DNA from: Gammaproteobacteria bacterium
GTDB taxonomy: Bacteria; Pseudomonadota; Gammaproteobacteria; Arenicellales; Poriferihabitantaceae
Direction: 5' to 3'
DNA: 42,088 bases
Assembly: GCA_011088265.1 (NCBI GenBank)
Contig: JAALKB010000005.1
Span: forward strand, 1-42,088
The position numbers and the translations under genes were made by a program. The notes under the pieces were generated by a model. It saw only the letters and a list, made by a program, of their open reading frames with translations. It searched no databases and was not told the DNA's origin. Of this stretch, positions 5,779 to 41,781 are shown piece after piece; the first letter of the stretch is position 1; each line of letters opens with the position of its first letter.

Positions 5779-6582
5779 CTAATTCGTGATGGAGGAGATA
5801 TTTGATAAAGCGATAAAGTCTTCCACTCGCAAATTCTCAGCACGTTGGCTAGTGTCTATACTGGCCATTTTAAATTGTTTGTCCGTTACCAGGTGCTTCA
5901 AACTATTTTTGATTGTTTTTCTTCTTTGAGAAAAAGCCGCGGTAACAATTTTTGACAGTGATTCCCGGCAGTTGATCTGAAAATGGTCATCCCGTGGCCA
6001 CATTCTGATTACGGTTGAATCCACCTTGGGTGGTGGATTAAAGGCGGTTGGAGGGACCTCAAATAGAGGTTCACAATGAAAGTCTATACCAGACATTATT
6101 GTCAGCCTGCCATAGTGTTTATTCCCTGGTACGGCGCTCAGCCTCATTGCCACTTCTTTTTGTAACATAAATACCATGTCCTCAATGATGTCTATGTGTT
6201 CCAGCAAATAAAAAATGAGAGGCGTTGAAATATTATATGGCAGATTCCCAATGATTCGAAGTTTCTGGTTTTGGACTCTCGTTTTAAACAAAGACGAAAA
6301 GTCGAATTTGAGAATGTCTGATTCTATGACTTCAAAGCTTCTTGTTTCATTCTGACCAAATTTGGCTTGGAGATGGTCAATAAGGTCTTTGTCCAACTCC
6401 ACAGCAGTTAAAGTTGTGATTTTATCAAGGAGTTTTTCAGTGAGCGCACCAGTTCCAGGTCCGATTTCTACAATGTACTGCCCCTCTTTAGGAGTAAATA
6501 CGTTTACTATTTTGTTCAGAATATTTTGATCGACCAGAAAATGTTGCCCGAAGCGCTTCCGTGGAATGTGTTGGGTTTTCAA
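5779..6582 (-). CDS. rsmA: 16S rRNA (adenine(1518)-N6/adenine(1519)-N6)-dimethyltransferase
   Basis: RsmA (KsgA) dimethylates two adjacent adenines in the 3' hairpin of 16S rRNA late in 30S assembly. The 267-residue product starts with KRFGQHFLVDQNI, has the SAM-binding motif VEIGPGTGALTEKLL, the catalytic NLPYNIST and the C-terminal FSQRRKTIKNSL, all typical. The start is TTG at 6580-6582, sharing TTGA with the pdxA stop, so translation is coupled to pdxA. The pdxA-rsmA order is the classic enterobacterial one, but apaG, which often follows, is about 29 kb away here. Confidence 0.97.
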   Translation of the reverse strand: MKTQHIPRKRFGQHFLVDQNILNKIVNVFTPKEGQYIVEIGPGTGALTEKLLDKITTLTAVELDKDLIDHLQAKFGQNETRSFEVIESDILKFDFSSLFKTRVQNQKLRIIGNLPYNISTPLIFYLLEHIDIIEDMVFMLQKEVAMRLSAVPGNKHYGRLTIMSGIDFHCEPLFEVPPTAFNPPPKVDSTVIRMWPRDDHFQINCRESLSKIVTAAFSQRRKTIKNSLKHLVTDKQFKMASIDTSQRAENLRVEDFIALSNISSITN

Positions 6583-7574
6583 GTTTGATCCCGGTTTTGG
6601 TTGATCGCAAATTTTCTGGCTAGGTGGACCGCGGATGCCAGGCTGGTTGAGCTGGCGGTGCCGGTGCCAGCAATATCGAGGGCAGTGCCATGGTCCACGG
6701 AAGTGCGAATGATGGGGATACCCAGGGTGACATTGACAACATCACCAAAATCGCTGTGCTTTATCACTGGCAGCCCCTGATCATGATACATCGCCAGGAT
6801 GGCATCCATTGATTTAAGGTATTTATTTGTAAAGGCGGTGTCAGCAGGTAAGGGGCCAATAAGATTAATACCACGTTCACGCAATTCCTCGACTATGGGT
6901 TCAATAGTATCGATTTCCTCACTACCCAGATGTCCTCCCTCACCAGCATGGGGGTTTAGACCGCAGACACCAATAGTGGGAGACGGGATTCCGTAGAGTG
7001 AAGCAATGTCTCGGTGCATAATATTGATAATGGATGCCAGGCGCTCTTTAGTGATGGCATTTGAGACCTCTTTTAATGGTAGATGGGTTGTTGCAAGGCA
7101 AACCTTCATATTGTTACTGGCTAGCATCATTACGGGCAATTCAGCTCCACATCGATCCGAGATCCATTCGGTGTGCCCGGTGAAGGGGATGCCTGAAGCA
7201 TTAATGATCGCTTTATGGACCGGAGCGGTCACCATGGCCTGGAACTCCCTGGATAAGCAAAGATCAACTGCTAAATTAATACTTCCGATAACTGATGAAC
7301 TATTCGCCTGATTCAAAATACCTGGGGAACAGGATGTCGTAAGGGGGAGGTGAATAACCGGTAACGTCCCGGGCTTTGATGCTGCACCATCATATTCAAC
7401 GATATCCAGGGCTATGCCAAGTTGATCCCCTCGTTGTCTGAGTAGGTCGATATCACCAATAGCAACGGTGTTGCTGGATAGTTTTGTGCTGGAGTAAAAA
7501 AGCTTGAGTACGATATCCGGACCTATTCCGGAAGGTTCTCCCACAGTGATGAGTAGTTTTTCGTCAGTCGTCAA
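6579..7574 (-). CDS. pdxA: 4-hydroxythreonine-4-phosphate dehydrogenase
   Basis: PdxA oxidises 4-phosphohydroxy-L-threonine in the DXP-dependent pyridoxal phosphate pathway. The 331-residue protein has GEPSGIGPDIVLK at the N-terminus, the metal/substrate region TAPVHKAIINASGIPFTGHTEW, GLNPHAGEGGHLG and MYHDQGLPVIK, which together are diagnostic. The start is TTG at 7572-7574 with GGAGG (complement of 7581-7585) 6 bases upstream. The first 11 bases overlap atl and the last 4 overlap rsmA, indicating one transcript for lipoprotein-atl-pdxA-rsmA. Confidence 0.96.
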   Translation of the reverse strand: MTTDEKLLITVGEPSGIGPDIVLKLFYSSTKLSSNTVAIGDIDLLRQRGDQLGIALDIVEYDGAASKPGTLPVIHLPLTTSCSPGILNQANSSSVIGSINLAVDLCLSREFQAMVTAPVHKAIINASGIPFTGHTEWISDRCGAELPVMMLASNNMKVCLATTHLPLKEVSNAITKERLASIINIMHRDIASLYGIPSPTIGVCGLNPHAGEGGHLGSEEIDTIEPIVEELRERGINLIGPLPADTAFTNKYLKSMDAILAMYHDQGLPVIKHSDFGDVVNVTLGIPIIRTSVDHGTALDIAGTGTASSTSLASAVHLARKFAINQNRDQT

Positions 7575-8592: not shown

Positions 8593-9927
8593 TCAATCTG
8601 CCAGGAGTTTGTCAGACAAAGGAGCGAAGAGATCCTGGATTGATTCCGTGGTAAATAATGTGGAGCTAGATAGACTGCCTGAGTACACTCCTTCGGCAAG
8701 TCGCTGCTTTTTTTTCTGCATGGCAATCATTTTCTCCTCGACACTATTTTCTACTACCAGCTTATAGATGAACACCGGTTTATCCTGTCCGATTCTGTGA
8801 GCACGGTCAATTGCCTGATTTTCTACAGCAGGATTCCACCAGGGATCATAAATAATGACTGTGTCAGCTTCGGTTAGGTTTAATCCTGTTCCACCCGTCT
8901 TTAGGCTGATAAGAAAAAGATCGACCTGGCCTTCCTGAAATTTTTGAATAGCTTCGTCCCGTTTTCGAGTCTGTCCGGTAAGTTTTGTATAGGACATTCC
9001 CTCTTCTATGAGTGCCTGCCCGATTAATTCAAGCATGGAAGTGAATTGGGAAAAAATCAGTATTCTTCTTCCTTCCTTAAGTTGTTCCGGCAATATCCTC
9101 ATCAGCATGTCTAGTTTGGCGGAGCGCTGATTAGTCATTGATCGTTGCAGACGGACCAAACGGGGATCACAACAGACCTGGCGAAGTTTTAGCAAAGCGT
9201 CAAGTATCGTAATATGGCTTTTCGCCAAACCCTGCGAAGAGATCGCATCGCGAACCCGTTTATCCATGGAAACCCGAATGCTCTCATAAATCTCTGCCTG
9301 TTCTGTGTGTAATTCAATATTGAGCAACATCTCTGTTTTTGGTGGCAATTCTTTCGCCACCTCAGATTTTCTCCGTCTTAGCAGAAAAGGTCGAACACGC
9401 TCAGATAAACTTTTCCTTCTATCCATGTCGCCGTGTTTTTCGATGGGTGTTCTATAGAAACGGGAAAACTGATCTTGTGTCCCGAGAAAACCTGGCATAA
9501 GAAAGTCAAACAACGACCAAAGTTCCCCGAGGTGGTTTTCAAGAGGGGTGCCGCTCAGGCAAAGGCGGTGATCCGCTGATAGCTGTCTAACCAGCTTTGA
9601 CATTTTTGTGTTGGGGTTTTTTATCATCTGAGCTTCGTCCAGAATGATGCTGTGGTAGTGAACCTGCATTAACCTTTCCGCATCTCTACTCAACAAGGGA
9701 TAGGTAGAGAGGATGATATCGTAAGCTTTGATATGTCTGAATTTTTGATGTCTATCGTTGCCATGTAACACCATGACACTAAGAGCTGGAGTGAAACGTT
9801 CTATTTCTCTACGCCAATTTCCCATCAGACTCGTAGGAGCAATGACTAAAGCGGGAGCCGTGAAACGGCCTTCCTGTTTTTCAACCAGCAGATGCGCCAG
9901 GGTCTGAATGGTTTTTCCAAGCCCCAT
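8593..9927 (-). CDS. C-terminal fragment of the broken helicase gene: SNF2 ATPase/helicase core
   Basis: The remaining 444 residues contain the motor: MGLGKTIQTL (Walker A), LDEAQMIKN (DEAQ box), CLSGTPLENH, ILIFSQFTSML, SLKTGGTGLNLTEAD and HRIGQDKPV. The first available ATG sits within the DDMGLGKT Walker A sequence, so any product begun there lacks the preceding helicase motifs. RNA-polymerase-associated RapA/HepA proteins belong to the same superfamily, but the SWIM domain points to the other bacterial SNF2 group. Confidence 0.7.
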   Translation of the reverse strand: MGLGKTIQTLAHLLVEKQEGRFTAPALVIAPTSLMGNWRREIERFTPALSVMVLHGNDRHQKFRHIKAYDIILSTYPLLSRDAERLMQVHYHSIILDEAQMIKNPNTKMSKLVRQLSADHRLCLSGTPLENHLGELWSLFDFLMPGFLGTQDQFSRFYRTPIEKHGDMDRRKSLSERVRPFLLRRRKSEVAKELPPKTEMLLNIELHTEQAEIYESIRVSMDKRVRDAISSQGLAKSHITILDALLKLRQVCCDPRLVRLQRSMTNQRSAKLDMLMRILPEQLKEGRRILIFSQFTSMLELIGQALIEEGMSYTKLTGQTRKRDEAIQKFQEGQVDLFLISLKTGGTGLNLTEADTVIIYDPWWNPAVENQAIDRAHRIGQDKPVFIYKLVVENSVEEKMIAMQKKKQRLAEGVYSGSLSSSTLFTTESIQDLFAPLSDKLLAD

Positions 9928-9954
9928 ATCATCTGCAAGTATTCCATTAAAACG

Positions 9955-10506
9955 TTATTGCCTAAGAAATTGTAGCCAGTTTAGTGCTATGTGTTGATAT
10001 GGTCTTAGGTTGGCATTGAACTTATCAGGTAATGGAATTGTTTTTATTCCAGAGAAATTTTCTAGTTTTTCTGCCAGCCCTCGCAAATATTCACCACCGC
10101 GGACCCTGCCTCCTAACCGGTTAATTGCAAGCGCGTCATATCTGGAAAGAGTGAGTGGTTGATCCAGTGCATTTTTAGGAGTTCTATTAAACAGCTCATT
10201 AAGCGTATCTACAAACGGTAAAATGCGTGACTTGGGAAGGCGAACGTAGCGGTGATCGCCAAGAGGCAGGGTTAATATTTCTGGAAGTTTGTGAATATCT
10301 GACGAAAGAATAGGCGCCAGTAGGGGTCCCAGAGGTAGTCTCTCATCGTTGACGGTTAAGTCGAAACGAAGACTAAACCAATCATTTCCATTTCCTTCTT
10401 CACTATCTTCTTCATGAATCGGAATCTCCCAATCACCATCATCAAACTGTAATCTGAAATTATCAGAATAATTGATCTGCCAGCCGTCAGATTCAAGTAT
10501 GTCCAC
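9955..10506 (-). CDS. Middle fragment of the broken helicase gene: linker up to helicase motif Q region
   Basis: This segment lies in the same frame between the two internal stops. A GTG at 10506 could start 183 residues, beginning MDILESDGWQINYS. It ends NLRPYQHIALNWLQFLRQ, the conserved lead-in to the SNF2 ATPase core, directly before TAA 9957-9955. Seven codons lie between the upstream TAG and this GTG. An independent function is unlikely. Confidence 0.5.
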   Translation of the reverse strand: MDILESDGWQINYSDNFRLQFDDGDWEIPIHEEDSEEGNGNDWFSLRFDLTVNDERLPLGPLLAPILSSDIHKLPEILTLPLGDHRYVRLPKSRILPFVDTLNELFNRTPKNALDQPLTLSRYDALAINRLGGRVRGGEYLRGLAEKLENFSGIKTIPLPDKFNANLRPYQHIALNWLQFLRQ

Positions 10507-10527
10507 TTCTTTTTCCAGAAAACTAGA

Positions 10528-11907
10528 CTAGGTATGGATGTCCTCCTGGGTTGGGGTATTGCCAATTGGAAGTAGGGTATGAGGTTGTCTTTTACTGGGA
10601 ATGGGCGGCTGGAGCGTGAATCCCATGTCGATGAGGCGCTGTATTGATTGGGTTTCCCTTTCCTTACTCCGCTTAACATGTATTCTTTGGTTTTTTGTAG
10701 ATAGTCGAGTCAGTGTCTCTACGGGATAGGGTAACACTCGATCTCCATCATAATCAAAATCCAGGAAAAGACAGTGCATACGCTTATTTGAGATCTCTAC
10801 AGAACCTAATGTCAGTCGGGGAGTTATTTTCTCTCCCGAGTTCTCCTTAACCTTCATTGCGACAGGTGGAGGAAGAGGGAGGTCGGGAAATGATTCCAGT
10901 AAGGTAGTATTTAACAGAGGGGCGAACTCCGCAGGAATGGTCGGCGCTTGCAATAGCATTGGTATTTGTTGTTGATGCCACTCACTGGACTCCATCATAC
11001 CCACTTTCCCCGATTGGCTATCAATATACATGGCTGGAATGGTAGGAAGTAAAATTAAATCTTCCGTATCCAGAGTTCTAAGGCAAAGCTCTCCACTTTC
11101 CGCGGGTATCCAACGGAATTCTATGGATAGGTCTGGTCCTTTGGCTAAAGGAGGATGTTGGAGATCGGTTAAAAAACAACGTTCGGTTTCTAACATTAGG
11201 TTTAGCGCAATTGCACCGGACCTTCCTTCCAATACTGACTCGGCGTTGTAGCTGTAAAGATTGGGATGAAGCGTTTTTAGACAGCGACCGATGTCGCGAT
11301 CTATTTGCTGAATACGACAACTCTGGTGATGATAAGCGGAACAAAGCTGATCGGGAGATGTTAATCTACCCTTGACCAATCCATTGCCGCTCTTGCGAGA
11401 GTGGGTTAATCGAATGTCAACGTGAACGGCCTTAGCCTCATTTTTCCACTGGGTTTGCATATAGACGGGGAATTCTGTACTGCCTGTTTCAGAAGTTCCA
11501 GAGGTCTCATGGGTAGTTAAATGAAGGGAATTCAACCAATGCGTGATTTCAGGACTTAGTTGGCCCTTATTCTCATGTAGATTCTGTTTTCGGTGAACAG
11601 AGGACAGTTGGTGTTGATTCTTCTCGTAGCACAGGCAAACTGCCGCAATGTGTTTACAGTTATAGTGCATGGGGCAACTGCAATAACCATCCACATCGAT
11701 GAATCCGTAATCAGCCCGCAAGACGATATTTTGCTCATAAATACGATGAGCCCCCCCTTTAGTTTTTGCCTTGAGCTTCAGTTCGGACTCATCACTGATC
11801 CCTTCAGCTTCCAAAAAAAGTACGCGACTTTTCGCAAAGTAATCCAGTCCTCTGGAAAAAGCCTGGTCACCACAGGCATCAATAACGTCCTGGCGTTTCA
11901 GTTGCAT
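10528..11907 (-). CDS. N-terminal fragment of the broken helicase gene: SWIM zinc-finger region
   Basis: This 459-residue open segment carries the SWIM zinc-binding motif C-S-C-P-M-H-Y-N-C-K-H (C-x-C-x6-C-x-H) near residue 77, a module for DNA or protein binding found at the front of many bacterial SNF2 proteins. The rest is the poorly conserved beta-rich region normally linking SWIM to the helicase. It ends at TAG 10530-10528 after NTPTQEDIHT. It could in principle be made as a stable truncated protein. Confidence 0.7.
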   Translation of the reverse strand: MQLKRQDVIDACGDQAFSRGLDYFAKSRVLFLEAEGISDESELKLKAKTKGGAHRIYEQNIVLRADYGFIDVDGYCSCPMHYNCKHIAAVCLCYEKNQHQLSSVHRKQNLHENKGQLSPEITHWLNSLHLTTHETSGTSETGSTEFPVYMQTQWKNEAKAVHVDIRLTHSRKSGNGLVKGRLTSPDQLCSAYHHQSCRIQQIDRDIGRCLKTLHPNLYSYNAESVLEGRSGAIALNLMLETERCFLTDLQHPPLAKGPDLSIEFRWIPAESGELCLRTLDTEDLILLPTIPAMYIDSQSGKVGMMESSEWHQQQIPMLLQAPTIPAEFAPLLNTTLLESFPDLPLPPPVAMKVKENSGEKITPRLTLGSVEISNKRMHCLFLDFDYDGDRVLPYPVETLTRLSTKNQRIHVKRSKERETQSIQRLIDMGFTLQPPIPSKRQPHTLLPIGNTPTQEDIHT

Positions 11908-25694: not shown

Positions 25695-26468
25695 TTGGAA
25701 TTTGATTTAGATAAAGTTGCAGAGTTACGGTCTGCCCTAAAAAAGAGGCCAGGCCCCATGAACTACCTATTGGACCGGGTGCGTCGGGATATGGAAGAAC
25801 GGATACTTAGAGTTTCGGAGCTGCCGTCAACAGGATTGATTATTGATTTTACTAACGGCGATATGCAGTTTGATTTTTTGTCGGAGCGTGAGGACATTTC
25901 CCTGTTGGAATGCCGTCATCCACTTCGCTCCTACCTAGAGTACTATGAAACAGCAAGTTTTGACTGTGTTGTGATCAATTTACAGATGTCCTGGCTCGAT
26001 TTTGAAAGTCTACTTGGGGAGTCCCGTCGGATATTGCGCTCAGGAGGGATGCTTTTTTTTTCTACATTCGGCCCAGATACATTAGGTGAGTTGGCCGATG
26101 CCTGGGGGAAAGTGGATGAGTCAGTACATGTACATCCCTTTGTCGATATGCATTTCATTGGTGATGCTTTAGTGAGATTGGGTTTTTCAAAACCAATTGT
26201 TGATACGGACTGGCTGACTATCGAATATCCAGGGGTCGGTATTTTGCTGGACGATCTGAAACAGGAGGGTTTTACCAATGTGCTTTCCACCAGGAGGAAG
26301 ACTCTTACTGGAAAAAATCGATTTCATCAATTTAAAACTATCCTCAAGGATAGGTTCGAGCATGATGGGGTGCTGTCGGTGAATTTCGAAATTGTGTTTG
26401 GCTTCGCTCAGGTGCCAGAAAATACGTCATCCATCAATGTTCGTCCGCCAGAGTTATCGTCCGGATGA
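25695..26468 (+). CDS. BioC/NDUFAF5-like methyltransferase-fold protein with degraded SAM motif
   Basis: The C-terminal two thirds resemble BioC-type methyltransferases: SGGMLFFSTFGPDTLGELADAW, then HVHPFVDMHFIGDALVRLGF. BioC O-methylates malonyl-ACP to start biotin synthesis; the related NDUFAF5 group modifies a complex I subunit. Motif I, normally a glycine-rich LDLGCGTG, here reads LIIDFTNGD (about residues 49-57), so SAM binding is doubtful. The next acidic position SLLECRH is also unusual. The start is TTG at 25695 giving MEFDLDKVAELRS; GAGAG lies just upstream. comF next to a bio-type gene is familiar from other gammaproteobacteria. Calling this functional BioC would be unsafe. Confidence 0.65.
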   Translation: MEFDLDKVAELRSALKKRPGPMNYLLDRVRRDMEERILRVSELPSTGLIIDFTNGDMQFDFLSEREDISLLECRHPLRSYLEYYETASFDCVVINLQMSWLDFESLLGESRRILRSGGMLFFSTFGPDTLGELADAWGKVDESVHVHPFVDMHFIGDALVRLGFSKPIVDTDWLTIEYPGVGILLDDLKQEGFTNVLSTRRKTLTGKNRFHQFKTILKDRFEHDGVLSVNFEIVFGFAQVPENTSSINVRPPELSSG

Positions 26469-26501: not shown

Positions 26502-27431
26502 CTATTGTCGACGTCCTGGCACTTTCAACGGAATGCCAGTGTTCATAATCCCCTGGTAAACCTGTAAGGCAATGTATTCCGCACTTTGAGGCAAAGGCGG
26601 AACAGCGCCAGCCTGCATATGGCAGCTAGCGTAACGCCGGTGGATGGTTCTCCAGGGTTGTCCCTGCAATGCCCATGCCGTGCGATACACCGGAAACCCT
26701 GTCGATTGCCCAAGAGCAGCACTAATGACGTCGCTGCGAATCTGGTTTCCTGAATTCTGGACATGGCAACTGGCACATGAAAAATTGCGCTGACCACGGC
26801 GAGTCCAATAGTATTGCCTACCTTTTTGATATGCGTCTCTTATCATGGGGCTGGAGTAATCAATGGACACGGGTTGTCCGTTTGCTTTGGACTTGTAAAA
26901 AGCGACTAGCTTTGCCATTTTCGCTCCATTCGCATTCAATGCCTGTTCACTGTGAATGGATAGGCAGTCGTTGATGTCGCCAACGATTGTCCGTATCGAA
27001 GTTCCATTGAAATAGGGGTATTGGTTACCGGGAGGCTTGTCGGAAAAACAAGTGGCTAAACTGGAGCCATCAACGAAGGATTGTTCCCAGTCTTTCTCCA
27101 TACCCCTGATTTCCCGAATGTGAATTGGAACGGAGGACAATAATTTCCAATTTTTTATGCGATGGGAATATTGCGGTAATCCATTAACACCATCCTGGTA
27201 TGTTTCAAGCTTAACGGTGGGGAAGCGGTTCTGGAAAAATTTCTGAAATTTCCTTATGTCTTCTCTTATCTCCTCATTATCCGGCGTCCCAAAGGAGGGC
27301 GTTGGTGTTATGAGAAAAAATAACACCATAAAAAAAGCCGGTATATGGTAGAAAACTGCTATCGTCAACCGCTGCTGTATTTTTTTGGCTGGCATTTTTT
27401 GGCAATGATTTCTGTCTATATTGCAATGCAT
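26502..27431 (-). CDS. soxA: Sulfur oxidation c-type cytochrome SoxA (mono-heme type)
   Basis: SoxA, with SoxX, forms the c-type cytochrome that couples thiosulfate to the cysteine of SoxY in the periplasm. This 309-residue protein has a signal peptide (hydrophobic about 23-48), one heme site C219-A-S-C-H223 preceded by YYWTRRGQRNFS, and the active-site region HRRYASC with Cys270, the family's unusual cysteine heme ligand. Cys128 (LATCF) and Cys156 stand where mono-heme SoxA proteins keep cysteines in place of the first heme. Its start overlaps soxZ by 16 bases; ATG at 27395 is an alternative. No soxX or soxB is adjacent. Confidence 0.9.
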   Translation of the reverse strand: MHCNIDRNHCQKMPAKKIQQRLTIAVFYHIPAFFMVLFFLITPTPSFGTPDNEEIREDIRKFQKFFQNRFPTVKLETYQDGVNGLPQYSHRIKNWKLLSSVPIHIREIRGMEKDWEQSFVDGSSLATCFSDKPPGNQYPYFNGTSIRTIVGDINDCLSIHSEQALNANGAKMAKLVAFYKSKANGQPVSIDYSSPMIRDAYQKGRQYYWTRRGQRNFSCASCHVQNSGNQIRSDVISAALGQSTGFPVYRTAWALQGQPWRTIHRRYASCHMQAGAVPPLPQSAEYIALQVYQGIMNTGIPLKVPGRRQ

Positions 27432-27703
27432 GAACGAGCGGTTCCCCGATTTCTGTTAACGTCTACCCAGTCGACGCTAATCAGGTCACCGGGTTTACCG
27501 GACGCTAAATGCACGCCAATGATAGGATCTTTGGAAAGTTGATTTCCAAATAACACGTCGGCAAATATTTCCCCGTTGAGGCGGAATTCCATATTGGATA
27601 TTTGTTGTTTCCTTGGGAATAATTGAGCGGTCTGAGAAATTGAGCAAAATATTCTGTATCCCTGGATGTCTTTTTGAATATGGATTTGAGTATGGTATTG
27701 CAT
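27416..27703 (-). CDS. soxZ: Thiosulfate-oxidation carrier complex subunit SoxZ
   Basis: This 95-residue protein matches SoxZ: an immunoglobulin-like beta sandwich that pairs with SoxY to make the periplasmic carrier. The recognisable features are VLFGNQLSKDPIIGVHLASG followed by KPGDLISVDWVDVNRNRG near the C-terminus, equivalent to the family's SKNP...GDxVxVxWVD. No signal peptide is present, as expected, because SoxZ is co-exported with SoxY. The start codon overlaps the soxY stop by one base (TAATG), so expression is coupled. Confidence 0.88.
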   Translation of the reverse strand: MQYHTQIHIQKDIQGYRIFCSISQTAQLFPRKQQISNMEFRLNGEIFADVLFGNQLSKDPIIGVHLASGKPGDLISVDWVDVNRNRGTARSCIAI

Positions 27704-28197
27704 TAGTTATCATATCCACTTATGCCTGTTCGTACGTATCTTGATGATCGAAACAGTTGCTTATTTCTTAAAACATAACATGAAATAACTGAACCTTCCT
27801 GAAGATCGACTGTGCCATTTACGGTGGGTCCGCAAGGAGGGTATAGAGTAAAACAGGCAACCAGTGGGTTTTCTGCTGGTTCGATAAAAACCGCCAGTTT
27901 TTCTGCACCGGTTGCGGTGATTCGAAATGGAACATAGGAGAGATGTTCCGCCTCTATTGGCATATCAATGATGATACTGGCATCATCATTCGCTTCCGTG
28001 GTCTCGAATAGTCTCCGTAGCGTTTTATCTCTGTTTTCGAGAAAAGTTGAGATGTTCCGAGTTTCCCCAAGGGGAGAATAAAATGCCGAAAAAGCGGCCG
28101 AAAACCCAGGAATCAATAAGGCGAAAGGTGATAACAGGATGTTTTTCAATGTCTTTCTTCGGGCCAATAAGGAGATCTTTTTAGCTCGTTCATTCAT
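27703..28197 (-). CDS. soxY: SoxY-like carrier subunit lacking the C-terminal cysteine arm
   Basis: SoxY normally carries sulfur intermediates on a cysteine in its C-terminal GGCGG arm. The 164 residues begin with a twin-arginine-type signal (ARRKTLKNILLSPFALL) and have the SoxY body (VPFRITATGAEKLAVF, ENPLVACFTLYPP). The end reads R-T-G-I-S-G-Y-D-N; aligned with the usual K-V-T-I-G-G-C-G-G it has the same length, with Tyr162 at the cysteine position. TAT and GAT each differ from TGT and GGT by one base. The frame runs intact into the soxZ start, which argues against a frameshift. A role in thiosulfate oxidation is therefore doubtful, even though soxZ and soxA follow. Confidence 0.82.
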   Translation of the reverse strand: MNERAKKISLLARRKTLKNILLSPFALLIPGFSAAFSAFYSPLGETRNISTFLENRDKTLRRLFETTEANDDASIIIDMPIEAEHLSYVPFRITATGAEKLAVFIEPAENPLVACFTLYPPCGPTVNGTVDLQEGSVISCYVLRNKQLFRSSRYVRTGISGYDN

Positions 28198-28336
28198 GGG
28201 TCATGTTTTATGATTTCCAGGTAAAAAATACATTATTGTTGGGTTTTCTGACTCTTCTCCTCTCTATCTGATTCGGGAGGAAACTGAATTAAAGCGCGAA
28301 ATGGACCATCTCACTGATTTTGTCCCTGAATAAACT

Positions 28337-29812
28337 TTATTCAAATTGAAGCTCTCCGGATATTGATCGCTTGTTTTCCAATTCTTTCAGACGGGCTGCA
28401 ACACTACTGGAAAAATAACCTTCTTCTTTATTGTCCCTTAGCGCAAGCTTCAGGGATGCGATGGCTCGTTGATTATCTCCCAACAGAGCGTGGTATTCAG
28501 CATCTGCCTGGTGAGCCTCGGGAATTTGACCCAATTCAACATTAATCCGGGAGAGCAATCGATAAAGCTGATAATCATTTGCTCGCCGTCGTAAATGGTA
28601 TCTGGTGACTTTTTTCGCTTCCTCAGCGTTACCGCTTGAAAGCAGTGTACTAGCGAGGTAGTACACCACGAAATGCAGTTCCGGGTTCCTCTCGGACAAC
28701 CGGGTTAATCGTTCAATGGCTTCTGTTCCTCGGCCGCTGGATTCTTCTATTGATGCCTGAAGGATTTGGAAATAGTGATTTTGGGGCGCATCCGCAATCA
28801 ATGGTGCCAGGATTTTCTCGGCTTCTGAGTAATGCCTTTCTTCGGCGAGAGCGGTGGCCAATCCATATTTGGCGGCAATCAGTTCCCTGGCTGGTAAATC
28901 AGATGTCTGTTTTTCGAAGTATAAGACTGGATCGATTCTGTCTGATGAGTATAAGGCCTGTATTTTTGCCCTAACGAGGTGATATTCCAGGCTGTTAGCG
29001 TGATCCACTTTCGGTAATTGTTGAGCGCGTTGCTCTGCTTCAGCGATCCTACTGTAGGAAAGCGGGTGGGTCCTTAAGAACTCGGGTGTACTGCTTCCCT
29101 TGGTGCGTGAATAGCGCTCGAGCTTATTAAAAAACTGAGTCATGGCAAAAGGGTCAAATCCCGCATTCGACAATAACTGTATTCCAACGGCATCGGCTTC
29201 TCGCTCAAAGTCCCGGGTGTAGCGTAATTGGTTAGACAACAGTTGGGCATTGGTAAGAGTCAATCCTGCCAATCCAGCCTGCCCTCCGATCAGAATTGAT
29301 CCAATAATCGCTGCGGTTGTTGGTAGCTTGTTATCCTGGGATCGAGCAATCAGTCTTGGTAAATGTCTCTGGGATAAATGAGCAATTTCATGGGCGACCA
29401 CAGAAGCCAGTTCACTTTCCCGTTCAGTGTTTAATAACAAACCTGTGTTGAAAGTAATGTAGCCTCCGGGTACGGCGAAGGCGTTTAATTCATTGGATCC
29501 AATGAGATTGAACACGAGTTCTACCCCACGTAGGTCAGCTGAGCGAGCTACCTGATCTCCTATTTTCTGAAGATAGTGCTTGAGTTCGTGGTCTGTGACA
29601 TAGTCGGTATTCCTTATTAGTCGCCGCAGAAAACTCTGACCAATTTCCTTTTCTTTTTGAGGAGAGAGATATTGTGTAGCACGATCACCTAATTCTGGTA
29701 GCTCATTAGCCTCTGCTTTTAGGGCAGAATTGAAAAGCAACACTAGTAGAAAAAGAAAACGGTGAATTTGCTTTGAATAAATTACTCCCGCGTACTTCCT
29801 GAAAATAGTCAT
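28337..29812 (-). CDS. bepA: M48-family periplasmic metalloprotease/chaperone BepA
   Basis: BepA (YfgC) is a periplasmic zinc protease that assists or degrades outer-membrane beta-barrel proteins such as LptD. A signal peptide is followed by the M48 catalytic domain with HEIAH (residues 141-145) and the third ligand in FEREADAVG (Glu205). TPR repeats fill the C-terminal 200 residues (YHLVRAKIQALYSSD, ELHFVVYYLASTLLSSG). I start at ATG 29812 because it puts a compact signal peptide first. The frame is open to ATG 29872, which would add 20 residues of unlikely sequence. Confidence 0.92.
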   Translation of the reverse strand: MTIFRKYAGVIYSKQIHRFLFLLVLLFNSALKAEANELPELGDRATQYLSPQKEKEIGQSFLRRLIRNTDYVTDHELKHYLQKIGDQVARSADLRGVELVFNLIGSNELNAFAVPGGYITFNTGLLLNTERESELASVVAHEIAHLSQRHLPRLIARSQDNKLPTTAAIIGSILIGGQAGLAGLTLTNAQLLSNQLRYTRDFEREADAVGIQLLSNAGFDPFAMTQFFNKLERYSRTKGSSTPEFLRTHPLSYSRIAEAEQRAQQLPKVDHANSLEYHLVRAKIQALYSSDRIDPVLYFEKQTSDLPARELIAAKYGLATALAEERHYSEAEKILAPLIADAPQNHYFQILQASIEESSGRGTEAIERLTRLSERNPELHFVVYYLASTLLSSGNAEEAKKVTRYHLRRRANDYQLYRLLSRINVELGQIPEAHQADAEYHALLGDNQRAIASLKLALRDNKEEGYFSSSVAARLKELENKRSISGELQFE

Positions 29813-30091
29813 ATTCAATGTTTTCCGATGCTTTCGGCTTCCAGCTGTTCCACTAAGGTCCAAGAGTAGCATTGGGTAGTTTGTCGGATATGTCAGTCAT
29901 TATCAAAATTGAAACTCAATCTTAAAAGTCAATCTTAACTGTTTGGTCCGCGTAAACCCGTTAAAGTTCTGTAATGTCTCACTATATTCGTTGAACCCCG
30001 AGGTATCGGATCGAGAGGGTTTTCACGAAAATTCAGTCAGGAGAACACCACAAAGTGTGGCGATGAACAACGTGACTACTATGTCCTGGGT

Positions 30092-30748
30092 TTATTTGAT
30101 TACCTGAAGGCCCTGTTCAGCGCTCAATAAGAGCACATCCGCGGGTCGTATGGCGAAGATTCCAACGGTGACAACGCCGGGAATCTGGTTGATGAGTTTT
30201 TCGGTTTCGATAGGATTGTCAATATCCATGTTTCTAACATCAATGATGGTATTGCCGTTGTCCGTTATAAAACCGCTACGCAGTTCCGGTTGTCCACCCA
30301 TTTTTACGATGCTTCTTGATACGAGACTTTGGGCCATGGGGATAACCTCAATGGGTAAAGGAAAGGTTCCAAGCCGATCAACCAGTTTACTTTGATCGGC
30401 GATGCAGATAAATTTTTCGCTAGCCTGGGCGACTATTTTCTCCCGGGTAAGGGCGCCGCCGCCGCCTTTGATTAAATGCCGGTTCTTTGTTGATTCGTCT
30501 GCACCATCAACATAGATAGGCAGTCTGCCGACGGAGTTAATATCTAGTACCTCTATTCCGTGGCTTTTAATCCGTTTTGCTGACGCATCAGAACTGGCCA
30601 CCGCTCCATCAATCTTGCCTTTTATTTTTGCAAGACCATCGATAAAAAAGTTGGCAGTGGAGCCTGTTCCAACTCCAACTATGTCGCCAACCTGGATATA
30701 TTCCAAAGCGGCTTCAGCCGCTTCCTGTTTTAGTTTGTCCTGATTCAT
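30092..30748 (-). CDS. rpiA: Ribose-5-phosphate isomerase A
   Basis: RpiA interconverts ribulose-5-phosphate and ribose-5-phosphate in the pentose phosphate and Calvin cycles. The 218-residue length is standard. Key sequences are [62 protein letters not shown] and the catalytic/active-site lysine region after KGG. ATG at 30748 has AAGG 7 bases upstream. cbbQ lies 124 bases upstream on the same strand, so a shared Calvin-cycle role is possible. Confidence 0.97.
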
Positions 30749-35913: not shown

Positions 35914-35963
35914 TACTGTTCCTTGGTATGCCACGTTTATTTTTATAGATGGTACTTGTAAAT

Positions 35964-35991
35964 AACTATAAATCCACAACTATAAATCCAC
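35964..35991. repeat. Perfect 14-bp tandem duplication at the aorA ribosome binding region
   Basis: aactataaatccac occurs twice in a row with no differences. The second copy ends 3 bases before the GGGAGA of the aorA Shine-Dalgarno region. Perfect identity suggests a recent duplication or selection. Confidence 0.92.
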
Positions 35992-36005
35992 AATGGGAGA
36001 TAGAA

Positions 36006-36482
36006 ATGCAACGATCGCTTTATATTGATCCGGATAAGTGTACGGGTTGTCTGCAGTGTGAAATGGCCTGCTCGTACGAGAATGAAGGGGTCTTCAATCC
36101 GTCAAAGTCCAGAATAAAGGTATTTACATTTCATGACGAAGGTCGGTTTGTTCCATATACATGCACCCAATGTGACGAAGCCTGGTGCCTGCATGCCTGT
36201 CCCGTTGAAGCAATCACCATGAACAAATCCACCGGGGCTATGGAAGTCAGTGATTCAGTGTGCGTGGGATGTAAAGTGTGCACCATTGCCTGCCCCTTTG
36301 GAACCGTGAATTATAATCAGGACAGTGGAAAAGTCGTCAAATGCGATCTATGTGGTGGAGATCCAAAATGCGCAAGCGCATGTCCCACAAGTGCTATTAC
36401 TTATGTAGATGCTGATGCGACTGGTCTTGATAAAATGCGCGCATGGGCAGCCAGAACCGATAATGCCGGGACGGCCAACTAA
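36006..36482 (+). CDS. aorA: AorA-like 4x[4Fe-4S] electron-transfer subunit of aldehyde oxidoreductase
   Basis: This 158-residue polyferredoxin has 16 cysteines in four cluster motifs: CTGCLQCEMAC, CTQCDEAWCLHAC, CVGCKVCTIAC and CDLCGGDPKCASAC. It resembles HycB/CooF-type proteins and the small subunit of the Aromatoleum-type aldehyde oxidoreductase, in which it wires the catalytic and flavin subunits together. ATG at 36006 is preceded by GGGAGA about 6-11 bases upstream and gives MQRSLYIDPDKC; the frame is open further upstream but into repeats. It lies 12 bases before aorB, and no signal peptide is present, so the complex is cytoplasmic. Confidence 0.9.
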   Translation: MQRSLYIDPDKCTGCLQCEMACSYENEGVFNPSKSRIKVFTFHDEGRFVPYTCTQCDEAWCLHACPVEAITMNKSTGAMEVSDSVCVGCKVCTIACPFGTVNYNQDSGKVVKCDLCGGDPKCASACPTSAITYVDADATGLDKMRAWAARTDNAGTAN

Positions 36483-36494
36483 GGGGGAAAGAAA

Positions 36495-38351
36495 ATGACT
36501 TGGGCACGCAAAATTTTAAGAATTAACCTGACTGCGGGTACTGTAAAGGAAGAAGCGTTAAACATGGAATGGGCAGCCAACTATATTGGCCAACGTGGAT
36601 TGGGAACACGCTATCTGGTAGAGGAAACGGATCCTGCATGTGATCCACTAGGGCCGGACAATAAGCTAATCTTCGCCACTGGGCCGCTTACTGGGACCAC
36701 TGTTTCCACAGGAGGTCGGTATTCCGTTATTACTAAAAGTCCCCTAACAGGGGCAATAGCCTGTTCTAATTCCGGCGGATTTATTGGTGCGGAGCTGAAG
36801 TCTGCGGGCTGGGACATGATTATATTTGAAGGAAAGTCTCCATCGCCGGTCTACCTGCATGTACAAAACGAAGTCGCTAAACTGGTTTCCGCTGAGGATT
36901 TATGGGGAAAGTCTGTTTGGGAAACCGACAAGTTACTCCATGAAAAACATCAGGATCCGCAAGTGAGAATAGCCGCTGTTGGCCGCTCCGCGGAAGAAGG
37001 GTGTTTGTATGCCGCTGTGATCAATGATCTCCATAGAGCGGCAGGGCGATCAGGAGTTGGCACTGTAATGGCGTCAAAAAACCTGAAAGCAGTGGTGGTT
37101 CGTGGTACTCGTGGTGTGGGTAATATCAAAGATCCCGTTAGATTCATGAATAGCGTGGCCGAACAAAAACAGGTGCTCGCTGAAAATGCCGTTACCGGTC
37201 AGGTACTACCTGCTTTGGGTACTCAGGTCCTGATGAATGTTATTAATGAAGTGGGTGCATTGCCGACGAATAATATGCAGGAGGTTCAGTTTGAGGGTGC
37301 TAATAATATTTCTGGCGAAGCGATGCTTGAGCCGCGCGAGAGCGATGGCAAACCAAATCTGACCACTAATGCAGCCTGCTTTGGATGCACGATTGCCTGT
37401 GGGCGAATTTCTACCATAGATAGAACTCACTTTTCAGTTGAGAACAAACCTGAGTACTGGGGTAACTCTGGCGGATTGGAGTACGAAGCTGCCTGGGCCA
37501 TGGGTGCAGACACTGGGGTCGATGACCTCGATGCGATTACCTACACCAACTTTATTTGTAATGAAGATGGTTTTGACCCTATTTCTTTTGGTTCAACCGT
37601 CGCAGCGGCGATGGAGTTATATCAGATAGGGGCAATTACCACAGATCAAACTGATGGTGTTGAACTGAATTTTGGATCCGCCGAAGCACTTACCTGGTGC
37701 GCTGATCAGGTTGCAATGGGAGTTGGATTTGGTCGGGATTTGGGCTTGGGATCCAAACGATTGTGTGAGAAGTATGGCCACCCAGAGCTTTCCATGACGG
37801 TAAAAGGGCAGGAATTTCCTGCTTATGATCCCCGCGGAATTCAGGGCATGGGCCTCACTTATGCGACTTCCAATCGAGGGGCTTGTCATCTTCGTGGTTA
37901 TACAGTGGCTTCTGAAATTCTCGGAATTCCTGAAAAAACTGATCCATTGGAGACAGAAGGTAAGGCTGATTTGGTTAAAGCATTCCAGGATGCGACTGCC
38001 GCCGTGGATTCAATGGGCTTATGTGTTTTCACAACATTCGCTTGGACGCTGGACAATATGGCTCCTCAAATTGACGCCGCATGTGAAGGTGACTGGACCG
38101 TTGAACGCTTAGCTGAAGCCGGTGAGCGAATTTGGAATCTTGAGCGGGACTATAATATCAAGGCCGGACTAACTGGTGCGGATGACTCCTTGCCTGGACG
38201 TTTGTTAAAAGATGCCGCAAAAGCGGGGCCAGCCGAAGGCAGGGTTTGTGATCTGGATAAAATGCTACCTGAATACTACGAGCTAAGAGGGTGGACTCCG
38301 AGCGGTGAAGTGACTGACGAAGTTAGACAAAGGCTTTCATTACCAGCATGA
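36495..38351 (+). CDS. aorB: Aldehyde ferredoxin oxidoreductase family catalytic subunit (tungsten/molybdenum pterin)
   Basis: The 618-residue protein has all three AOR domains: the N-terminal pterin-binding domain (WARKILRINLTAGTVKEE, GRYSVITKSPLTGAIACSNSGG), then the iron-sulfur and helical domains. The [4Fe-4S] ligands are C295-x2-C298-x3-C302 and C510 in GLCVFT. Family members oxidise aldehydes, or reduce carboxylic acids, using a tungsto-bis-pterin. Whether W or Mo is used cannot be read here. Sizes and order (17, 67 and 45 kDa class for the three subunits) match the NADH-linked AorABC of Aromatoleum. It overlaps aorC by 4 bases (ATGA). Confidence 0.92.
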   Translation: MTWARKILRINLTAGTVKEEALNMEWAANYIGQRGLGTRYLVEETDPACDPLGPDNKLIFATGPLTGTTVSTGGRYSVITKSPLTGAIACSNSGGFIGAELKSAGWDMIIFEGKSPSPVYLHVQNEVAKLVSAEDLWGKSVWETDKLLHEKHQDPQVRIAAVGRSAEEGCLYAAVINDLHRAAGRSGVGTVMASKNLKAVVVRGTRGVGNIKDPVRFMNSVAEQKQVLAENAVTGQVLPALGTQVLMNVINEVGALPTNNMQEVQFEGANNISGEAMLEPRESDGKPNLTTNAACFGCTIACGRISTIDRTHFSVENKPEYWGNSGGLEYEAAWAMGADTGVDDLDAITYTNFICNEDGFDPISFGSTVAAAMELYQIGAITTDQTDGVELNFGSAEALTWCADQVAMGVGFGRDLGLGSKRLCEKYGHPELSMTVKGQEFPAYDPRGIQGMGLTYATSNRGACHLRGYTVASEILGIPEKTDPLETEGKADLVKAFQDATAAVDSMGLCVFTTFAWTLDNMAPQIDAACEGDWTVERLAEAGERIWNLERDYNIKAGLTGADDSLPGRLLKDAAKAGPAEGRVCDLDKMLPEYYELRGWTPSGEVTDEVRQRLSLPA

Positions 38352-39592
38352 ATTACGTAATTATTGGCGCTGGCCCAGCGGGGGTGGTTGCTGCTGAAAC
38401 GTTGAGAAAACTCGATCAAACAGCCACCATCACCCTCATTGGGAATGAACCCGAGCCTCCTTATTCGCGAATGGCTATTCCCTATTTGTTAATCAACAAT
38501 ATTCAGGAACAAGGAACCTATTTGAGAAAACAGAATGACCACTTCCAGGACAAGAGTATTGATGTTGTCATTGGCTCAGTGACTTCCGTCGATATTCAGG
38601 CTCAAAAGCTTGGTTTGTCAGATGGATCAGTCGTTGAATACGACAAGCTTCTGGTTGCAACAGGCTCCAGACCTATTTCACCGCCGGTACCGGGCATCGA
38701 TCATCAGAAAGTTACTTCCTGTTGGACGCTTGCAGACGCGAGGAAAATTGCAGAGGGTGTTAAACCCGGCGCATCAGTTGTGTTGATCGGGGCTGGATTC
38801 ATCGGCTGTATTATTCTTGAGTCTCTGGTTGCCTCTGGAGCTGATTTGACGGTTATCGAGATGGGCAACCGAATGGTTCCGAGAATGCTTGATGAGAAAT
38901 GTGGAACAATGCTCGAAAAATGGTGTCTAGCGAAAGGTGTAAATGTGATGACTAGCTCCCAGGTCGAAGCTATCGAATCTGCAGGGTCCAATGTCAATGT
39001 AATGATTAGCGGTGGTCGGCAAGTTGAAGCTGAACTGGTGATTTCCGCCGCTGGGGTTCGTCCCAATGCTGATTTTCTATCGGATTCCGGTGTTGAATTA
39101 GTCAATGGTGCTATTTTAATTGACGAATATATGCAGTCTTCCGTTCCCAACATTTACGCTGCTGGTGATGTTGCCCATGGAAAGGACTTTTCCACGGGGG
39201 AGTTCAGCGTGCAGGCTATTCAACCTACAGCAGTTGATCATGCTCGAATTGCAGCGAGTAACATGGTCAAACATGGAAATGTACGCCATCAAGGCAGCGT
39301 ATTAATGAATGTGTTGGATACCATGGACCTAATTTCTGCTTCATACGGTCAGTGGGAAGGAGTGGAAGGTGGAGAGACCGCACAGCTACTTGATGAAGAC
39401 AATTTCAGATATATGCAGCTACAGTTTGAAGGCAATCGATTAATCGGTGCAAATACACTGGGGATGACTCAACATATTGGTATTTTGAGGGGGCTGATTC
39501 AAGGTGGATTTGATCTTGGGGTTTGGAAGCAGAAGCTCATGGACAATCCACTAAGAGTCATGGAAGCTTATCTCTCGGTAACTCATGGTTAG
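38348..39592 (+). CDS. aorC: AorC-like FAD/NAD(P)-dependent oxidoreductase subunit
   Basis: The 414-residue protein is a two-dinucleotide-binding-domain flavoprotein: VIIGAGPAGVVAAETL at the N-terminus for FAD, VLIGAGFIGCIILESL near residue 140 for NAD(P), and YAAGDVAHG near 270 closing the FAD site. It resembles the NADH-oxidising subunits related to nitrite reductase and CoA-disulfide reductase. In the Aromatoleum-type complex this subunit lets aldehyde oxidation reduce NAD+ directly, or the reverse. Translation is coupled to aorB. Downstream, 89 bases containing three tandem repeats separate it from the first moaD-like gene. Confidence 0.9.
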   Translation: MNYVIIGAGPAGVVAAETLRKLDQTATITLIGNEPEPPYSRMAIPYLLINNIQEQGTYLRKQNDHFQDKSIDVVIGSVTSVDIQAQKLGLSDGSVVEYDKLLVATGSRPISPPVPGIDHQKVTSCWTLADARKIAEGVKPGASVVLIGAGFIGCIILESLVASGADLTVIEMGNRMVPRMLDEKCGTMLEKWCLAKGVNVMTSSQVEAIESAGSNVNVMISGGRQVEAELVISAAGVRPNADFLSDSGVELVNGAILIDEYMQSSVPNIYAAGDVAHGKDFSTGEFSVQAIQPTAVDHARIAASNMVKHGNVRHQGSVLMNVLDTMDLISASYGQWEGVEGGETAQLLDEDNFRYMQLQFEGNRLIGANTLGMTQHIGILRGLIQGGFDLGVWKQKLMDNPLRVMEAYLSVTHG

Positions 39593-40755: not shown

Positions 40756-41781
40756 TTGATAAAAGATAAACGCCAAAGACCGCTTCATGATATTAGAATA
40801 TCAGTGACAGATCGATGCAATTTTCGATGTGGATATTGTATGCCCAAAGATGTGTTTGGGAAGAATCATCAGTTTTTGCGCCAAAGTGAGTTACTAGATT
40901 ATGAGGAAGTCGAAAGGCTTGTTAAAGCGTTCACAATATTAGGTGTTACGAAAGTACGATTGACTGGAGGTGAACCCCTTTTACGAAAAGACCTCGAGTA
41001 CTTAATTGAAAAACTAACAAACTTCGAAGCAATCAACGATGTGGCAATTACGACAAATGCCTCGCTACTTACTAAAAAAAGAGCGTTATCCCTCAAGGAA
41101 GCGGGGATCCGACGAATCAACATCAGCTTCGACGCGATCACTCCCGGGATATATCAACAGATCAACCAGATCAACTACCCAATGGAAGATATTCTCAAGG
41201 GGATTGAGAATGCCATTGGGGTTGATTTTGAGGCTGTCAAGGTAAATATGGTGGTGCAAAAGGGGATTAATGAAACTGACATCATTCCTATGGTAGAACA
41301 TTTTCGTGGATCAGGAGTGATATTACGGTTCATTGAGTTTATGGATGTAGGAAACCACAACCAATGGAATCACAACAAAGTTTTCAAATCCCAGCAAATA
41401 ATTGACACCATTCAGGCGAAGTATCCACTGCGAGTGGTTGGAGAGAACTATCCTGGAGAAGTAGCCAAGCGATGGGAATATCTGGATGGCAAGGGAGAAA
41501 TAGGAGTTATTTCTTCGATTACCCAACCTTTTTGTGGTGGTTGTACAAGAGCCCGATTATCTGCAATTGGGGAACTCTATACCTGTCTGTTTGCTCACTC
41601 GGGTTTCGATTTGAGAGGAATGTTGAGAAAGGGTTTTAGTGACCAGCAGATTGTTGATGAACTTTCGAAAATCTGGATGAACCGGACCGATCAATATTCC
41701 GTTGAGCGATTGAAAAATCCTTCTGGAACAGGATTGCCGCCTAATAGTCAAAAAGTCGAAATGTCCTATATCGGCGGCTAA
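40756..41781 (+). CDS. moaA: GTP 3',8-cyclase (molybdenum cofactor biosynthesis protein A)
   Basis: MoaA is the radical SAM enzyme that, with MoaC, turns GTP into cyclic pyranopterin monophosphate, the first intermediate of molybdopterin and tungstopterin. The 341 residues have both [4Fe-4S] sites: the N-terminal C-N-F-R-C-G-Y-C and the C-terminal FCGGCTRARLSAIGELYTC. The catalytically needed C-terminal Gly-Gly is present (MSYIGG). VRLTGGEPLLRKDLEYLI is the SAM-binding GGE motif. The start is TTG at 40756, with AGG 9 bases upstream; no ATG gives the conserved DIRISVTDRCNFRC region. It follows the aor/moaD genes and supports a dedicated pterin supply. Confidence 0.94.
   Translation: MIKDKRQRPLHDIRISVTDRCNFRCGYCMPKDVFGKNHQFLRQSELLDYEEVERLVKAFTILGVTKVRLTGGEPLLRKDLEYLIEKLTNFEAINDVAITTNASLLTKKRALSLKEAGIRRINISFDAITPGIYQQINQINYPMEDILKGIENAIGVDFEAVKVNMVVQKGINETDIIPMVEHFRGSGVILRFIEFMDVGNHNQWNHNKVFKSQQIIDTIQAKYPLRVVGENYPGEVAKRWEYLDGKGEIGVISSITQPFCGGCTRARLSAIGELYTCLFAHSGFDLRGMLRKGFSDQQIVDELSKIWMNRTDQYSVERLKNPSGTGLPPNSQKVEMSYIGG

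Follow-up and report, generated by a model that had tools for sequence, protein, structure and literature searches.

The principal finding of this study is that a soxYZA set in the window—the whole 42,088-nucleotide stretch of gammaproteobacterial DNA that we analysed—encodes a SoxY without the cysteine that carries sulfur, and that the same loss runs through four genera in which the set sits at one conserved place in the chromosome. Textbooks present SoxYZ as the covalent sulfur carrier, with a SoxY cysteine that is regarded as indispensable. Retention of the set throughout the clade without this residue suggests that it now has a role other than covalent sulfur carriage. Our main reading is that a repurposed heme module operates here without covalent sulfur carriage; taken as a whole, history and function together, we put it at about even. 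We are almost sure of the history and far less so of the function. We found no report of a SoxY without its carrier cysteine in the open-access literature, which is weak evidence of novelty.

A SoxY without its carrier cysteine

The sox genes of the window and their surroundings are listed here by position.

25695 to 26468, plus strand: bioC-like methyltransferase gene, convergent and downstream of soxA; canonical bepA-linked loci often have soxB there
26502 to 27431, minus strand: soxA, encoding a monoheme-type SoxA with an SCASCH heme site and Cys270 present
27416 to 27703, minus strand: soxZ, encoding a divergent SoxZ that carries Cys20 and has lost canonical residues of the PMETG...PAH loop region
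27703 to 28197, minus strand: soxY, encoding a SoxY paralogue without the GGC carrier motif and with the tail GISGYDN
28198 to 28336, no strand: soxX site, a 139-bp intergenic region in the window, occupied by soxX in the 13 clade members of other genera
28337 to 29872, minus strand: bepA-like gene for an M48 protease/TPR protein, the ancestral upstream neighbour of the sox locus
30092 to 30748, minus strand: rpiA, the upstream flank, conserved in relatives

The soxY open reading frame translates into a product of 164 residues with the C-terminal end SSRYVRTGISGYDN, the last residues being RTGISGYDN where canonical SoxY has VTIGGCGG. Its final codons on the minus strand are GGC ATA AGT GGA TAT GAT AAC TAA, with TAT occupying the position of the cysteine codon. 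Translation and DNA reading therefore bear out the preliminary description of an SGYDN tail in place of the cysteine, and the sequence agrees with its other structural claims: soxZ begins at the last A of the soxY stop codon (TAATG), and neither soxX nor soxB adjoins soxYZA in the window. The N terminus of the product is of the twin-arginine type (ARRKTLKN). Family models recognize the protein as SoxY and not as a canonical one, since it scores above the gathering cut-off of the Pfam SoxY model (PF13501, 32.7 versus 28.4 bits) and far below that of NCBIfam TIGR04488 (SoxY_true_GGCGG, 31.1 versus 125 bits), which intact copies from the sister species and from genus g6 (G006) reach with 146 and 136 bits, respectively. 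The GGCGG arm that defines TIGR04488 is missing from it. In a joint alignment, the carrier cysteine is found in 60 of 60 comparison proteins and in none of the 15 clade members, and the counts are the same for the GGCGG motif. An AlphaFold2 model of a natural SoxY-SoxZ fusion from the clade (G015, pLDDT 83) retains the SoxY fold, with 2nnc and 2oxg as the best structural matches and a TM score of 0.84 to 2oxg_Y. We take PDB entries 2OX5 and 2OXG to be SoxYZ, and 1H31-1H33 and 2C1D to be SoxAX.

The loss is widespread among close relatives. Our searches—of 145 relatives at first and later of 109 genomes of the order—separated two SoxY classes within the same family, normal (E about 1e-30) and divergent (E from 1e-7 to 1e-11). 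Cysteine-free SoxY occurs in 15 genomes belonging to four genera, in every member examined of each (2/2, 1/1, 5/5 and 7/7), and in none outside these genera among the 109 genomes of the order. The search for such proteins covered Gammaproteobacteria, and SoxY or SoxYZ-like proteins from 59 further gammaproteobacterial loci all keep GGC. Within the clade, the K-V-T-x-GGCGG arm is lost in every member and the N-terminal arginine and leader are retained, amino-acid identity falls to about 30%, and six genomes, all of genus g8, encode SoxY and SoxZ fused into one protein. The tails read GYDN in the window, GYES in the sister species, and elsewhere GKSS, GHWQQTRA, GHWENN, GSWRDVAE, GAWREVEQ, GHWESFS or PVPGF. 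It is thus the loss of the cysteine that is conserved (15 of 15 genomes), and not, as the preliminary description had considered, the tyrosine, which is common only to the window and its sister species, the other genera having HW, AW, SW or the fusion to SoxZ. A conserved tyrosine acting as a substitute catalyst is ruled out by this variation between genera. The case in which relatives are intact and this strain alone is altered was also examined: the relatives lack the cysteine too, and the claim stands.

SoxZ is altered as well. It scores 30.3 bits against the Pfam SoxZ model (PF08770, cut-off 25) and only 35.8 against the NCBIfam equivalog SoxZ_true (TIGR04490, cut-off 76), and in the PMETG...PAH loop region it is without the canonical residues E, P, H and N, which elsewhere are invariant or nearly so. 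Its Cys20 is present in 14 of 14 clade members and in 5 of 61 others in a joint alignment.

The heme proteins are better preserved. SoxA from the window passes the curated model (TIGR04484, 154.7 versus 110 bits), and so, with it, do all three clade SoxA proteins that were scored. Its SCASCH heme site (Cys219, Cys222 and His223) and distal Cys270, described earlier as intact, are so in the sequence and are invariant across a 10-row alignment; CxxCH and a heme-ligand-type cysteine are present in 14 of 14 clade proteins, as is a further cysteine pair. The arginines around the heme have fared differently. The window protein has the arginines at Cys-4 and in FPVYR, and glycine for the one at Cys+5, a replacement found in all clade members. 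The FPxYR arginine is serine in 12 of the 14 proteins and the Cys-4 arginine is glutamine in 8, both being retained only in the window genome and its sister species. The Cys-4 residue is the equivalent of TsdA Arg119, described as invariant in TsdA and SoxA (PMC4423706), and Arg232 of R. sulfidophilum SoxA, described as invariant in SoxA (PMC4423706), would map to FPxYR, counting from the cysteine in the alignment. SoxX, where present, retains CxxCH, and the single clade SoxX that was scored passes the SoxX model (66.7 versus 61). In five fused-SoxYZ members of genus g8 (L165, L167, L164, L166 and L042), the heme-ligand motif MPP of SoxX reads KPP, which suggests an altered axial ligand.

Ancestry of the locus and sox complement of the window genome

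The order rpiA, bepA, soxX (where present), soxY, soxZ, soxA and convergent bioC occupies one syntenic place in 15 of 15 genomes, and no remnant of soxX was found between bepA and soxY in the window genome or its sister species. Among 80 named loci with a related SoxA, the arrangement bepA-soxX-Y-Z-A with an intact GGCGG is common, soxB often being next to it. These intact bepA-linked loci come from related uncultured Gammaproteobacteria, in records named Arenicellales, Acidiferrobacteraceae and others, and the same locus with an intact GGCGG is present in genus g6, which belongs to the same family but is not one of the four. Judged from this shared synteny, the cysteine-free genes are at the ancestral position, because intact sets of related families and of g6 share the bepA locus. 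In a tree of 97 SoxA proteins—which has some long branches, the detail inside the cysteine-free clade being uncertain—this clade is monophyletic (100/98) and has the intact bepA-linked genes of g6 (G006 and G010; 99/97) as its sister group, and the family's second complete sets lie apart, on a branch of their own (100/100) near Chromatiaceae and allies. Two further arrangements were seen. UBA5680 (L058, 6332-7828) has bepA-soxX-soxA with no detectable soxY or soxZ, and G014 (L171, C73:145000-158000, 6169-7505) has an extra, very divergent SoxA/SoxX-like pair beside which no SoxY or SoxZ was detected, its SoxA grouping with the G013 protein, on a very long branch.

Most other clade members, the sister species among them, carry another, complete soxBXYZA at a different place in the genome. 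The preliminary description had supposed that the window genome might hold one too, a supposition that fails, as family searches and the scar of a deletion on contig C128 rule it out. The genome, a draft of 317 contigs, contains one SoxY, one SoxZ and one SoxA, all within the window, and no SoxX above the cut-off, the best match (22.9 versus 61 bits), on contig C33, being a generic cytochrome c (Pfam cbb3/cytochrome c). The soxB gene on C128 is truncated, covering model positions 1-480 of 556 where most relatives reach 541-555. Aligned with the sister species, this 165-kb contig of a draft assembly misses about 2.9 kb, a span comprising the N terminus of a small conserved gene, soxA, soxZ, soxY, soxX and the last 64 or so codons of soxB. 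At the junction (L049, 123000-142900), the truncated genes lie at 9925-11568 (soxB) and 9693-10013 (the small conserved gene, which is without its signal-peptide region). The window genome therefore does not combine SoxXA, a cysteine-bearing SoxYZ and SoxB, which together make a functional Sox system. Because soxXYZA is deleted and soxB truncated, the canonical Sox thiosulfate pathway cannot, in the genome as assembled, operate, and sulfur oxidation would have to depend on rDsr, which remains (DsrA was found).

Selection, proposed history and alternatives

Purifying selection clearly acts on the cysteine-free module, if less strongly than on the canonical set. Among the closest clade members compared (G011, G020 and G023), dN/dS by the Nei-Gojobori method is 0.20-0.24 for soxX, 0.15-0.25 for the soxYZ fusion and 0.19-0.25 for soxA, similar to the 0.15-0.23 of neighbouring bepA; for the canonical soxXYZA of the pair G011/G020 it is 0.04-0.13. 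The purifying selection that the preliminary description had proposed to look for is thus seen in these three genomes, across the range 0.15-0.25.

These findings fit a history, observed or strongly indicated at each step, in which the locus is the lineage's old bepA-linked soxXYZA, no longer a covalent carrier of sulfur. The starting state would have been bepA-soxX-Y-Z-A with a normal GGCGG SoxY, as in related families and in g6. A second soxBXYZA of other ancestry presumably reached the common ancestor of the four genera, in which the bepA-locus SoxY then lost its carrier cysteine once, the XYZA genes thereafter being held by purifying selection with their c-type heme proteins largely intact. 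Two later-stage losses complete this history: that of soxX from the bepA locus in the window's genus and, in the window genome, that of the second set through the deletion of about 2.9 kb that probably truncated soxB as well.

What the module may do now is approached through what it has lost. SoxAX joins thiosulfate by a disulfide to the cysteine on the swinging arm of SoxY, and SoxB hydrolyses the conjugate (PMC5336275). Neither step is possible on the cysteine-free product because the arm thiol is absent, and the earlier claim that this YZA set has lost its known carrier chemistry holds. There is a precedent for chemistry without a protein carrier: in TsdA, a SoxA-type heme acts on thiosulfate via its own cysteine (PMC4423706). 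Since what remains in the clade is a SoxA/TsdA-type heme and a SoxYZ dimer, this precedent favours chemistry or binding at the SoxA heme. The Tat-exported SoxYZ may be a non-covalent partner of the cysteine-ligated heme protein SoxA, together with SoxX where present, in a complex whose SoxA heme would be the site at which, much as in TsdA, a small sulfur compound or a thiol is bound or oxidised, the dimer serving in docking, assembly or signalling in place of sulfur carriage. Thiosulfate is disfavoured as the substrate outside the window's genus because the thiosulfate-binding arginines are replaced in most of the clade. In its specific form—a SoxXYZA complex without any covalent sulfur carrier, acting as a heme-cysteine enzyme or sensor with SoxYZ recast as a non-covalent partner, and maintained by selection in four genera once thiosulfate oxidation had passed to another sox set of different origin—we hold this proposal tentatively, at somewhat short of even. 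Some observations speak against our main reading: the absence of soxX in the window's genus would leave SoxA there without an evident electron exit, the methionine ligand position of SoxX is lysine in five fused members, and the module is constrained several-fold less strongly than the canonical set.

One alternative is slow decay, in which the module is a redundant duplicate heading for loss with no present function. In its favour, dN/dS is two- to several-fold above that of canonical sox genes, soxX has been lost in the window's genus (g1) and its methionine altered in g8, SoxA arginines are lost in most members, and the canonical set itself is deleted in the window genome. However, no stop codon or frameshift was seen in the module in 15 genomes of four genera despite SoxY identities down to about 30%, dN/dS stays at 0.15-0.25, the heme motif, heme cysteine and gene order are kept, and in G011, G020 and G023 the module evolves at the pace of bepA. 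We consider decay unlikely. A sensory or regulatory module, in which SoxYZ and SoxA bind thiosulfate or sulfide without turnover and report to another system, would suit the window genome and its sister species, the only two that keep both the FPxYR and Cys-4 arginines while being without soxX; yet the genes have neither a regulator nor a membrane sensor linked to them, their neighbours bepA, rpiA and bioC being of the housekeeping type, and we regard this as rather improbable.

A little less credible still is relocation of the carrier function to another cysteine, most likely Cys20 of SoxZ, present throughout the clade and seldom elsewhere, or Cys140 of SoxY, found in 10 of 15 clade members. 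Cys20 takes the position of a beta-strand valine (Val in 41 of 50 canonical proteins) on a side that alternates with other hydrophobic residues and is probably buried, Cys140 is also present in 21 of 49 normal GGCGG SoxY proteins and lost in five fused g8 members, and the flexible glycine arm that would present the thiol is gone too. As Cys140 is common in normal SoxY and Cys20 usually valine, we set a relocated cysteine aside as the main explanation and keep it as a minor rival. The absence of the SoxY cysteine from five fused members also speaks against a disulfide between the subunits (Cys20-Cys140). As for an artefact in the window, the draft state of the genome is the one point in its favour; the same loss in 14 other genomes, named public MAG contigs included, rules out a sequencing or assembly error or a strain-specific change, and leaves this explanation with practically no probability.

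Comparison with known systems

Our analysis highlights similarities and differences with canonical SoxXYZA and SoxB. The same four families are found in the same order with adjoining or overlapping soxY and soxZ, and the Tat-type SoxY leader, the CxxCH and heme-ligand-type cysteine of SoxA and the SoxY fold are shared. Unlike in canonical Sox, SoxY is without the carrier cysteine and glycine arm, SoxZ without its loop residues, SoxA has glycine at Cys+5 in all members with the other thiosulfate-binding arginines lost in most, soxB is not adjoining, and soxX is absent in the window's genus. Paralogous sets have been described before: Starkeya novella has, beside a full set, a soxX2Y2Z2A2F2 cluster without soxB or soxCD, which is reported to be expressed at a low level (PMC3797975). 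This cluster differs from ours in belonging to another lineage and including soxF, and we found no statement in that paper about a missing SoxY cysteine (PMC3797975).

Two NCBIfam families comprise SoxY or SoxYZ relatives outside the standard thiosulfate pathway, TIGR04557 (quinoprotein-dehydrogenase-associated fused SoxYZ-like) and TIGR04487 (SoxY-related AACIE arm). The former joins Y and Z in one protein, as genus g8 does, but the window protein scores 15.7 bits and two fused relatives 36.3 and 21.7 against its cut-off of 140, and these have no arm cysteine. The latter, judged from the family name, retains a cysteine, unlike the window SoxY, for which a profile search gave no match to TIGR04487. 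Long SoxYZ-like proteins (L003, L005, L006, L010, L017, L020 and L025) also differ in keeping a GGC-SAP cysteine. TsdA shares with the clade SoxA the cysteine-ligated heme of the SoxA family and works without a SoxYZ carrier (PMC4423706). However, TsdA is a two-domain diheme protein, whereas the clade SoxA is monoheme and falls within SoxA by score (TIGR04484), and SoxX either has a gene of its own or is missing.

A clade that lacks the cysteine and keeps SoxX, SoxZ and SoxA offers a natural experiment on the capabilities of SoxYZ and SoxXA in the absence of that residue. There is also a practical side: because the clade SoxA proteins and the one SoxX scored pass curated cut-offs, genome surveys would count them as thiosulfate oxidation even where, as in the window genome, the canonical pathway is absent.

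Elsewhere in the window, positions 35949-39592 hold a set made up of a ferredoxin-type 4Fe-4S subunit, an aldehyde ferredoxin oxidoreductase (AOR)-like protein and an FAD/NAD-linked oxidoreductase, and a moaA-like gene comes next (40756-41781); read from sequence, the set resembles a tungsten/molybdenum enzyme of the AOR type, here in a gammaproteobacterium.
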